Assembly: GCA_017411325.1 (NCBI GenBank)
Contig: JAFQQJ010000019.1
Coordinates: 1 to 64,000, forward strand
DNA: 64,000 bases
Source: Clostridia bacterium
Lineage (GTDB): Bacteria > Bacillota > Clostridia > CAKSNL01 > HGM11501
Direction: 5' to 3'
Numbering within the stretch: position 1 is the first letter of the stretch; each line of letters starts with the position of its first letter. The notes beneath the pieces are model-generated. The model had not been told where the DNA came from, did no database searches, and saw only the letters and a list, made by a program, of their open reading frames with translations. Made by a program: the position numbers and the translations under genes. Below are positions 7,465 to 11,029 of the stretch, piece after piece.

Positions 7465-9021
7465 ATGACACAGATTCTCATTGGCCTCGGTATCGGGTTA
7501 GTGATTGCTGTAATCGCCGGATTTATAATGTTCAAAGCCGGAATTACATACAACCGCAAAATATCCGAAGCTGAGATAGGCAGCGCCGAAGACGAAGCTA
7601 AAAGAATTGTTGACGAAGCTACAAAAGAAGCCGAAAACAAGAAAAAAGAAGCTTTGCTTGAGGCAAAAGAAGAGATCCACAGAAACAGAGCGGAACTTGA
7701 CAAGGAAGTAAAAGAAAGAAGAAGCGAACTTTCAAAACAGGAAAACCGTCTTCATCAGAAGGAAGCAAACCTTGATAAGAAGACAGAAACCTTAGAGCAG
7801 AAGGAAGAAGCACTTGCAACCAAATCCAAGGAGCTTGATGTTGAAAAGGAAAAGCTCATAGCTCTTCAGAACGAAGAAAGAACAAAGCTTGAGCAGATTT
7901 CAGGCCTTTCAGCAGAAGAAGCTAAAGAATATCTTCTCAAAAATCTTGAAAGCGAAGTTCGCCACGAAGCGGCAATCATGGTTAAGGAAATCGAGCAGGA
8001 AGCGAAGGAAAACGCAGAAACAAAAGCTCGTGAAATTATCGGATATGCACTTCAGAAATGCGCAGCAGACCATGTTGCGGAAACTACAGTCAGCGTAGTT
8101 GCTCTTCCCAATGACGAAATGAAGGGAAGAATTATCGGTCGTGAGGGCAGAAACATAAGAACCCTTGAGACCATGACAGGTATCGATCTTATCATCGACG
8201 ATACACCCGAGGCAGTTATCCTTTCGGGCTTTGATCCCGTAAGACGTGAAATCGCAAAAATCACACTTGAAAAACTCATTGTTGACGGTCGAATTCATCC
8301 TGCAAGAATTGAAGAGACTGTTGAGCGTGCGAAGAAAGAAATTGAGCGCACTATTAAGCAGGAAGGTGAGCAGGCAACCTTCGATACAAATGTTCAGGGG
8401 CTTCATCCTGAAATCGTTAAGTTACTCGGTAAGCTTCATTACAGAACAAGCTACGGACAGAATGTGCTTATGCACTCTACCGAGGTTTCCTATCTTTCCG
8501 GACTTATGGCGGCAGAGCTTGGCGCCGATGTCACTCTCGCGAAGAGAGCAGGTTTACTTCACGACCTGGGTAAAGCAGTTGACCACGAAATTGAGGGCTC
8601 TCACGTTGCTATCGGCGTAGATATCGCCAAGAAGTACGGTGAAAGCTTTGACGTATGCCACGCTATTGAAGCGCATCACGGCGATGTACAGCCGCAGACA
8701 CTTATCGCTTGTATCGTTCAGGCGGCAGATGCTGTTTCCGCAGCCCGTCCCGGTGCAAGAAAAGAAAACATTGAAAACTACATCAAGCGTCTTCAGAAGC
8801 TTGAAGAAATCGCAAACTCCTTTGAGGGAGTTGACAAGTCCTTTGCTATTCAGGCAGGCCGTGAAATCAGAATTATGGTTAAGCCCGAAATCGTTTCAGA
8901 CGAGGGTATGGTGCTTGTTGCAAGAGATATCGTAAAGCGTATTGAAAACGAGCTTGAATATCCCGGCCAGATTAAGGTTAATCTCATAAGAGAAACAAGA
9001 GAATCCGGCATTGCAAAGTAA
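7465..9021 (+). CDS. rny: Ribonuclease Y
   Basis: The membrane-anchored endonuclease that starts mRNA decay in Firmicutes. It is 518 residues. One N-terminal membrane helix (about residues 4-26) is followed by a long Glu/Lys-rich coiled coil to about residue 190. A KH domain follows with [15 protein letters not shown] near 220. The HD domain has a His at about 336 and the HD pair in [11 protein letters not shown] near 366. The downstream neighbour ymdB matches the known rny-ymdB pairing. The final 20 codons plus the terminator are repeated immediately downstream in near-identical form (9091-9200). A good AAAGGAGG supports the ATG. Confidence 0.97.
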
Positions 9022-9037
9022 TAATCTACAGCAGGCT

Positions 9038-9068
9038 AAAAAAGAGTGGCATCGAGCCTCTCTTTTTT
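9038..9068 (+). terminator. Terminator of rny, first copy
   Basis: Stem AAAAAGAG-GGC/GCC-CTCTTTTT with one T-T mismatch, followed by a T run. Confidence 0.75.
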
Positions 9069-9169
9069 CCTCGAAAACACTTTCTTCGGATATCCCGGCC
9101 AGATTAAGGTTAATCTCATAAGAGAGACAAGAGAATCCGGCATAGCGAAATAATAATCTACAGCAGGCT

Positions 9170-9199
9170 AAAAAAGAGTGGCGTCGAGCCACTCTTTTT
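9170..9199 (+). terminator. Terminator of rny, duplicated copy
   Basis: Stem AAAGAGTGGC/GCCACTCTTT. The mismatch seen in the first copy is paired here. Confidence 0.75.
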
Positions 9200-9414: not shown

Positions 9415-10191
9415 ATGAACATTCTTTTTATAGGTGACATTGTGGGGCGTAGCGGCAGAGAAGCCGTTTTTGCCCACCTTGACAGAATTAAATACGAATA
9501 TGATATAGACTTTACAGTTGCCAACGGCGAAAACTCCTCAGGCGGCCTCGGTATGAGCGCCCGCGTTTACGAAGAGCTGTCTTCTGCCGGTATCGACTGC
9601 TTTACCTTCGGCAACCACACCTTCAGCAAGCCCGATGTAAAGTCCCTTGTTAAAACGGGCGAAAATGTTGTTATCCCGTCAAACTACGAAGATAAGGAAT
9701 TTTCCGATACACACGGAATTTTCCGCACCAGGGAGGGCAGGAAAGTTGCCGTAATAAACCTGCTCGGAAGTGTGTATATGGATATTCCCGTGGAAAATCC
9801 CTTTCACGCAGCAGATAAGCTTATCGAAAAGGTGAAAACAAGCACCAATATCATTCTCATTGACTTTCACGCCGAGGCAACCAGCGAAAAAATTGCACTC
9901 GGTCAATATCTTGACGGAAGAGTGAGCGCCCTGCTTGGCACCCATACCCACGTTCAGACCAATGACGCCTGCATTCTTCCCGGCGGCAGCGCATATATCA
10001 CCGATGCCGGTATGACAGGCCCAGAAAACAGCGTTTTGGGGCTTCGCAGTGACATTGCCATAAAAAGATTCCTTACGGGCGAAAAAATCCGCTATGAGGC
10101 TTCTAAAGAGCCTTCCCGCTTCCGTGGGGTAATAGTTTCAATAAATGACGAAACAGGTAAAGCAGAGGATATTAAGACGCTTTGTCTGTGA
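9415..10191 (+). CDS. ymdB: YmdB-family metallophosphoesterase
   Basis: A 258-residue dinuclear metal phosphodiesterase. Bacillus YmdB hydrolyses 2',3'-cyclic nucleotides and influences biofilm and motility choices. Metal-ligand motifs are seen in order: GDIVGRSGRE (Asp8), NGEN near residue 38, GNHTF near 67, DFHAEATSEK near 149 and GTHTHVQT near 177. Full length for the family. GGAAAGGA precedes the ATG. The position downstream of rny is conserved in Firmicutes, but a terminator pair, a repeat element and its own promoter separate the two genes here. Confidence 0.93.
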   Translation: MNILFIGDIVGRSGREAVFAHLDRIKYEYDIDFTVANGENSSGGLGMSARVYEELSSAGIDCFTFGNHTFSKPDVKSLVKTGENVVIPSNYEDKEFSDTHGIFRTREGRKVAVINLLGSVYMDIPVENPFHAADKLIEKVKTSTNIILIDFHAEATSEKIALGQYLDGRVSALLGTHTHVQTNDACILPGGSAYITDAGMTGPENSVLGLRSDIAIKRFLTGEKIRYEASKEPSRFRGVIVSINDETGKAEDIKTLCL

Positions 10192-10197
10192 ATAAGC

Positions 10198-10225
10198 AAA
10201 GACCTGCCGATGGTCAGGTCTTTTT
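10198..10225 (+). terminator. Terminator of ymdB
   Basis: Hairpin AAAGACCTG/CAGGTCTTT followed by T5, starting 7 nt after the ymdB stop. Confidence 0.8.
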
Positions 10226-10230
10226 AAGTA

Positions 10231-10259
10231 TTGACAAATATAAAAAAATAAAATATACT
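10231..10259 (+). promoter_or_regulatory. Consensus promoter of a small RNA
   Basis: TTGACA (10231-10236), exactly 17 bp, TATACT (10254-10259). No open reading frame of note follows; a structured RNA with a terminator does. Confidence 0.8.
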
Positions 10260-10264
10260 AAAAA

Positions 10265-10330
10265 TCAGAGATGTGCGGTAACCACCGAAAGGTGTAATGC
10301 TGGGGCTTTTAAGCCAACATCTCTTTTTTA
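10265..10330 (+). ncRNA. Predicted small RNA of about 65 nt, three-way junction
   Basis: Transcription from the promoter at 10231-10259 should begin near 10265. The RNA is closed by AGAGATGT (10267-10274) pairing with ACATCTCT (10317-10324), followed directly by a T run. Inside are a CACC-GAAA-GGTG hairpin (10283-10294), probably extended by a GC/GC pair across a purine-rich internal loop, and GGCTT-TT-AAGCC (10304-10315). It ends before the convergent gene at 10452. I do not recognise a named riboswitch or sRNA family. Because the closing stem is itself the terminator, a stand-alone sRNA fits better than a leader. Confidence 0.65.
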
Positions 10331-10451: not shown

Positions 10452-10802
10452 TTATTTTCCAGTATGCTCCTTCGCTGTATTAATCGATACTATAAGCATT
10501 TTGCGAATTGTTCCGCATTCATTGTATACAATCTTTGCAGTTTCTCTTTCCAGTATATCTGATTTCACAAATAGCTCTAACCAGTATTCTGTCTCGTAAC
10601 ATTCCTTTAAGGCTATCTGCAGTTTGGATATAAAATCATTCTTACTCTGCGCATAATTCGCTTCGTGCAGATTTGCGCCAATGGAAGTAGCACTGCGTTC
10701 AAGCTGATTAACAAGAGAATGGTGCCCTTTAACCGTTTCGCATAATTTTATTACCTTAACCGAAAATTCAACCGACAAGTCTCTGAGTTTTGATTCTGCC
10801 AT
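10452..10802 (-). CDS. Four-helix bundle protein (23S rRNA IVS-encoded protein family)
   Basis: A 116-residue, all-helical protein. The pattern LVNQLERSATSIGANLHEA and LKECYETEYWLEL is typical of the four-helix bundle family first described from intervening sequences in 23S rRNA genes. Members often sit alone, away from rRNA, as here. The molecular function is not established to my knowledge. It has its own minus-strand promoter at 10823-10851. No rRNA sequence is present nearby, and the adjoining hairpin array and tRNAs on the same strand give no further hint. Confidence 0.8.
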   Translation of the reverse strand: MAESKLRDLSVEFSVKVIKLCETVKGHHSLVNQLERSATSIGANLHEANYAQSKNDFISKLQIALKECYETEYWLELFVKSDILERETAKIVYNECGTIRKMLIVSINTAKEHTGK

Positions 10803-10854: not shown

Positions 10855-11004
10855 GTGAAATATCAACTTCGTTGATGTGAAATAATTTCTGTCGAAATCG
10901 TGAAATAGAAACCTAACGGTTTCTGTGAAATGAAATAAATCCTCTCACGCCCGCAGGCATTTCACATTGCAAAGCAATATTTCACACCCGAAAGGTATTT
11001 CACA
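10855..11004. repeat. Second hairpin array with mirrored GTGAAAT/ATTTCAC spacers
   Basis: Four GTGAAAT spacers (from 10855, 10877, about 10899 and 10925) in the left half face three ATTTCAC spacers (10959, 10979, 10998) in the right half. Between them are small hairpins such as ATCAAC/GTTGAT, GAAACC/GGTTTC, ATTGC/GCAAT and AATCC/GGATT. The layout equals that of the array at 198-496, with a different spacer word. It lies 3' of the tRNA-Tyr terminator. Confidence 0.65.
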
Positions 11005-11029
11005 AATCCTGAAAGGATTTATTTCGTTG

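Follow-up and report, generated by a model that had tools for sequence, protein, structure and literature searches.

A probable orphan of a candidate class of antisense RNA genes embedded in polyvalent effector genes of Clostridia

In the window, i.e. the whole 64,000-nucleotide (nt) stretch of contig JAFQQJ010000019.1 of a Clostridia bacterium that was analyzed here, a compact unit with the layout of a small RNA gene (10231-10329) is located between a YmdB gene with its stop at 10191 and a convergent 23S_rRNA_IVP gene (10452-10802, minus strand). Based on the comparisons described below, this unit is, with a probability of roughly 0.85, an orphan of an antisense class of LPD3-type polyvalent genes. 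Its promoter, TTGACA-N17-TATACT, agrees with the consensus at 11 of 12 positions, and the 3' arm of the outer stem (10317-10324) abuts TTTTTT without a gap. The predicted RNA, the start of which was placed by inference about 7 nt 3' of the -10 box, has the overall shape of a closed three-way junction followed by the T run, with one of the two inner hairpins tipped by CACC-GAAA-GGTG at 10283-10294. This junction is the minimum free energy (MFE) structure (-24 kcal/mol), with z = -2.75 relative to dinucleotide shuffles and 2 of 200 shuffles as good. A first-pass annotation, made from the letters alone, had reported the complete promoter, the paired ends running into the T run, the two inner hairpins and the GAAA cap, all of which were confirmed by reading the sequence and by the MFE fold. 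Its placement of the unit after the ymdB terminator and before a convergent gene, independent of both, also stands, as ymdB has a hairpin of its own and 23S_rRNA_IVP is convergent. The coordinates are summarized in Table 1.

Table 1. Features of the unit and its immediate surroundings in the window.
Feature	Coordinates	Strand	Basis and remarks
-35 box TTGACA	10231..10236	+	Sequence read; identical in G019 and in nearly all embedded units
-10 box TATACT, spacer 17 nt	10254..10259	+	Box and spacing the same in G019 and most relatives
Predicted RNA, ~64 nt	10266..10329	+	Fold; full-length homology to G019:C12, minus strand
Outer stem P1, 5' arm AGAGATGT (= AGAGAUGU)	10267..10274	+	Pairs with ACATCTCT at 10317-10324
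Inner hairpin P2: CGGUA/UGCUG stem, AC/UAA internal loop, CACC-GAAA-GGUG tip	10276..10302	+	
Inner hairpin P3: GGCU-UUUA-AGCC	10304..10315	+	One pair lost in G019
Outer stem 3' arm ACAUCUCU plus T run (predicted intrinsic terminator)	10317..10329	+	Sequence, fold
Non-coding relic of effector coding sequence	10231..10327	-	KRDVGLKAPALHL, 1-nt frameshift in P2 loop, GYRTSLIFSIFYFFIFVN
ymdB terminator-like hairpin, separating the unit from the upstream gene	~10198..10223	+	Sequence read; not flagged by the scan that scored the promoter

Among 196 related genomes, one near-full-length match was identified, on contig C12 of the Oscillospiraceae metagenome-assembled genome (MAG) SIG430 (hereafter G019), at 79% identity (positions 2-102 of the 105-nt query). 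The -35 box and the T run mark the two ends of the alignment. In three base pairs, one in P1 (A-U to G-C) and two in P2 (G-U to C-G and C-G to U-A), both bases differ and pairing is retained; two other base pairs are lost. When the substitutions were permuted among same-base columns, at least three double changes were obtained in 18 of 20000 trials; the built-in shuffle of the covariation tool (68/500) cannot resolve two sequences. Because a relative of another family has the promoter, the fold and the T run in the same register, with three double compensatory pairs and two lost, the window stretch is, as judged from sequence, more than a product of chance. A small-peptide reading of the same region (ATG at 10271, MCGNHRKV) was dropped, since the peptide is not kept in G019. 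The first-pass annotation had proposed a covariance search as a check, which was run with a model built from the window/G019 pair; apart from the two lost pairs, the paired positions are kept in G019, but neither 391 genomes of the class nor the two families yielded another member. Similarly, a scan of public genome contigs gave no close relative of the RNA besides G019. The weak covariance-model hits that were checked look like chance hairpin-plus-T-run matches, viral-contig matches to conserved strings of the RNA fell in unrelated coding sequence, and blastn matches in plasmids and phages were confined to promoter-like A/T stretches.

The G019 unit is on the opposite strand of a long open frame with a MuF_C domain (728 amino acids in the wider locus), and the protein across the unit reads KGDVGVKAPALHLISGYGTSPNISISNFLEFVN (also given as KKGDVGVKAPALHLISGYGTSPNISISNFLEFVN). 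Judging from its translation, the minus strand of the window is a broken piece of a G019-type gene, limited to the part under the RNA unit; in addition to the frameshift listed in Table 1, it has a stop codon just ahead of KRDV. The window unit thus has a sigma70-type promoter with a spacer of 17 nt, a stem closing on a T run and an RNA within the ~50-80 nt range of the class described below, whereas the antisense position within an open polyvalent frame, found in G019 and in the embedded units, is lost through the 1-nt shift and the stop. Since the host reading frame is broken, we call the window unit an orphan and a derived copy. The small-RNA reading of the first-pass annotation was right about the unit having its own promoter and terminator stem but missed this effector-gene origin, which is invisible from the window alone. 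An alternative that we consider unlikely, although it deserves weight, is that the window copy is a passive, functionless and promoter-like relic left after loss of a mobile element. The frameshifted coding relic on the opposite strand is in line with this, as is the sporadic distribution, with no copy in the rest of the family or in ~390 genomes of the class except G019. Two sequences, moreover, cannot polarise the compensatory changes, which may predate the loss. A neutral relic, however, need not keep bounds that run exactly from the -35 box to the T run, an intact promoter and three double compensatory pairs relative to G019.

With the G019 domain as query, a protein search led to the phage scaffold MT838554.1, a locus that was found via its protein and not via the RNA. 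The homologous domain of this scaffold has an antisense TTGACT-N17-TATACT promoter, a predicted three-way-junction RNA of the same layout and an eight-T run (fold z = -3.6). The G019 and MT838554.1 domains both match Pfam LPD3 (PF18798) weakly, below the curated cut-off. A sample of 291 genomes of the class yielded 25 LPD3 loci; the material consists mostly of MAGs from one class together with a few viral contigs, and the frequencies given here hold for that sample. In 21 of the 25 loci, three of which (L107, L111 and L112) are near-identical copies in one genome, we identified an antisense promoter (at least 10/12 consensus positions, spacer 17) whose -35 box is ~400-500 nt past the LPD3 start, or closer to it in three loci; behind the promoter comes a stem with 7 or more pairs that closes on a T run. 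Of the remaining four, L091 has the antisense promoter with no strict stem, and L093, L099 and L105 have no unit at the expected position, L093 having one elsewhere in its open reading frame (ORF). A unit is also present in L314, a locus from another class of the phylum, and in all of the viral homologs that peptide patterns retrieved for the G019 domain type, two of which first came from a promoter-pattern scan. The targets of the embedded units are polyvalent ORFs of up to 4100 amino acids where intact. In the MuF_C loci L299-L303, units located after MuF_C share an inner hairpin with an AATTGG-type loop, the stem of which varies with compensation (GGGC/GCCC, GGGG/CCCC and GGAAT/ATTCC).

For the controls, a strict unit had to combine a perfect TTGACA and a spacer of 17 with a stem on a T run that has 7 or more pairs, 3 or more of them G-C; a looser detector was discarded in favour of this one because its background was too high (shuffle mean 13.5). 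By the strict definition, the antisense strand of 52.4 kb of LPD3 ORFs contains 22 promoters, 21 of them with a unit, and the sense strand none of either. In 30 within-ORF synonymous-codon shuffles, which keep the protein, the means were 0.67 promoters and 0.17 units, with maxima of 2 and 1, respectively. In the MuF_C set, which partly overlaps the LPD3 set, six antisense promoters and five units were found against none in sense, with shuffle values of 0.08 and 0.02. In the contig stretches that surround 16 of the loci, 20 strict antisense units and no sense unit were found among 128 ORFs (211.6 kb); the 20 units are located in 13 ORFs, all of which are LPD3 genes or fragments beside them. Other viral ORFs, 321 kb in total, contained no strict antisense unit.

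The reverse complement of the promoter corresponds to a protein motif, S-I-x6-V-[KN], which occurs in the same codon phase in most loci. The G231 copies (L107, L111 and L112) have the unit in a different codon phase from all others and encode an unrelated peptide there, and L103, a gene with four stop codons, retains its unit. Because synonymous shuffles destroy the unit, phase and peptide differ in G231, and both L103 and the window keep the unit without a frame, we say that it is apparently the RNA gene, at the DNA/RNA level, and not the peptide that is kept. The viral pair L233/L234 differs at 11 positions in 67 nt, six of which form three double compensatory pairs, one per helix; no pair is broken, the remaining differences are in loops, and the encoded residues differ. 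None of 50000 permutations did as well. The compensatory changes thus appear to preserve the fold at the cost of amino-acid changes. In an AF2 model of the L234 domain with a mean predicted local distance difference test (pLDDT) score of 75.8, residues 151-170, where the RNA lies, are below pLDDT 50, so that the unit overlaps a predicted disordered stretch of the protein in the case tested. Of 38 units folded, nine are two-inner-hairpin junctions, the shape of the window unit, and 29 are long interrupted hairpins; eight of the nine junction units are on domains of the G019/L056/L101 type. The fold energies of the 38 units average 3.5 standard deviations below synonymous resampling, a value that is inflated by the units having been selected for their stem.

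We propose that the class consists of short antisense RNA genes inside polyvalent (multi-domain, delivered) effector genes of Clostridia phages and mobile elements, each placed at the end of an effector domain. At the sequence level, each unit consists of a predicted sigma70-type promoter opposite the effector gene and a closed fold of ~50-80 nt, a three-way junction in the case of the window, with an outer stem that doubles as a predicted intrinsic terminator. Transcription would be constitutive. The exposed loops of the RNA would pair with the effector mRNA, with pairing extending over the full length of the RNA, and this would block the mRNA or trigger its cleavage, leaving the effector off in the carrier cell. 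The model fits the strand, the possession of a promoter and terminator, and the position at the effector-domain end, and the predicted duplex between the window RNA and the G019 mRNA segment has an energy of -88 kcal/mol. We put antisense silencing of the effector domain forward tentatively, at slightly less than even odds; both silencing and immunity are inferred. The window orphan, if functional, would act in trans, as no target was detected in its own genome at blastn sensitivity and neither LPD3 nor MuF_C was found there; it may then protect, as an antidote, against a G019-like domain on an element that is incoming or co-resident, a role that we hold with less confidence than silencing by the class as a whole. 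A broader and rather speculative proposal is that effector domains may carry their own RNA antidote across the domain end on the opposite strand, with the promoter shaping the protein motif, and that the RNAs may outlive the domains, in arrays and as chromosomal orphans, as RNA-based immunity against phage and conjugative effectors. Orphan immunity genes of polymorphic toxin systems would be a parallel to such retained RNAs.

Several observations weigh against this model. All promoters and terminators of the class are sequence predictions, and with 29 of the 38 folded units being long hairpins, the class is defined by its layout and not by one fold. At blastn sensitivity, no cis target was detected in the genome of the window, and LPD3 and MuF_C were not found there either, which leaves the orphan with no known home partner. 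Pairing of the window RNA with the G019 mRNA is imperfect at 79% identity. With regard to toxicity of the domain, the PDB match of a fold search to a contact-dependent growth inhibition (CDI) toxin is weak (6cp9, E 0.06), and the search otherwise returned other LPD3 proteins.

It is also conceivable, but in our judgement improbable, that the RNA binds the effector domain itself as a structured antidote or cofactor, and that the overlap of the two genes ensures their co-inheritance and co-variation. Such a role would agree with the closed, stable folds kept by compensation, since plain antisense pairing needs no particular fold, as well as with the similar three-way junctions on homologous domains and the position of each unit where its would-be partner domain ends. 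A terminator, however, also needs a stem that leads into a T run, and no RNA-binding property of LPD3 and no sequence match to any solved protein were found. Less plausible still is that the unit is a DNA element marking or driving domain shuffling in polyvalent genes, with promoter and terminator serving recombination or insertion. Polyvalent proteins are highly mosaic (PMC5512222), and the units are located at domain ends, some of them in tandem across broken frames at distances of 120-180 bp; however, the units showed neither a common core sequence nor target-site duplications or fixed boundaries, and the features that they have in common (sigma70 boxes, 17-nt spacer, T run) are transcriptional. 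That the antisense promoters are a by-product of the S-I-x6-V-[KN] motif and the stems due to chance is very improbable, for although motif and promoter coincide in frame in most loci, protein-preserving synonymous shuffles almost never yield a promoter or unit, the G231 unit is in another phase, and structure is kept despite amino-acid change.

The tandem arrangement was observed in L294 (5000-8140; G018:C17) and L288 (4030-9740; G274:C10), where antisense units lie in places 120-180 bp apart. In L294 the tandem units cross broken reading frames, and homologous units recur both within and between G018 and G274. These units look like further leftovers, which fits retention of the antidote after effector loss and also simple decay.

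Within the genome of the window, no second copy of the unit was found at blastn sensitivity. Most of the perfect promoters inspected in this genome (30 of 218 hits and 13 chosen stretches) are those of ordinary host genes, and none of these loci holds a second clear unit. A unit-like sequence occurs in L240 at 1501-1610 (G000:C1:8667), with TTGACA-N17-TATAAT, a 9-pair stem, an inner hairpin and then a T run. The ymdB neighbourhoods of G002 and G003 are not syntenic with the window, and therefore no empty site can be read from them. A cis-regulatory leader or riboswitch was ruled out, as the next gene is convergent and no same-strand gene follows; a terminator-only reading was ruled out as well, since a promoter in register recurs in the relatives and ymdB has its separate hairpin. 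At 0.6 kb from the unit, beside two tRNA genes, a Gut-1 RNA (RF01706, 73.9 bits) is encoded at 10954-11029 on the minus strand. Like the predicted RNA of the window unit, it is a small RNA of gut Clostridia, but it matches its own Rfam family and has no similarity to the unit. Upstream, at 8958-9199, the 3' end of the RNase Y gene and its terminator are tandemly duplicated (132 bp, 94% alike).

The first-pass annotation recognised no described class and suggested an Rfam scan. This was run against Rfam 15, and at the gathering threshold no family covers the window unit or the units in 20 further loci, so that its statement holds; matches to the window unit at loose E-values were chance matches only. 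The paper that founded the study of polyvalent proteins (Iyer et al. 2017; PMC5512222) deals with proteins only and makes no mention of antisense, noncoding RNA, promoter or linker. It is inside genes of this type, including those with LPD3 (PF18798), that the window unit has its relatives, and the window minus strand appears to be the relic of one such domain. Searches of the open-access literature, with subscription papers and preprints outside their scope, turned up no description of RNAs of this kind. As in the proposed model, type I toxin-antitoxin systems have a short, stable, terminator-ended RNA transcribed opposite the gene to be silenced. Antisense overlap with the controlled gene, as expected of type I, is present in the relatives; for the window unit, no target was detected in its own genome at blastn sensitivity. 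The type I partners are small membrane peptides, whereas no small hydrophobic toxin peptide is involved here, the targets being polyvalent ORFs and the partner a domain of a very large effector gene; the RNA is also contained entirely within that gene's reading frame, and the unit in the window is an orphan. If the RNA were instead an antidote binding the effector, type III systems would offer the likeness of a structured small RNA beside a phage-related effector. ToxI-like RNAs are upstream, same-strand tandem repeats that are processed by the toxin. Membership of type III was rejected for the window unit, which is antisense and a single unit with its own terminator and no internal repeats. 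Antisense RNAs inside or overlapping a mobile-element gene are also represented by IS200 art200 and IS10 RNA-OUT, which target the translation starts of transposases. The units described here differ from these in being located at domain ends, often far from the gene start, in unrelated effector domains. Based on these comparisons, the finding is best described as predicted cis-antisense RNA, which is a known kind, in a class that appears to be previously undescribed and that has an orphan member in the window.

If the units are transcribed, the phages and mobile elements of gut Clostridia would have, within their effector genes, a widespread layer of RNA control that is so far undescribed. The recurring protein motif at the domain end would then be explained by the promoter of which it is the reverse complement, and this would be one of the rare cases in which an RNA gene shapes a protein sequence. 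The finding makes it testable how a carrier cell silences the gene of a delivered effector, and whether chromosomal orphans such as the one in the window protect against related elements.
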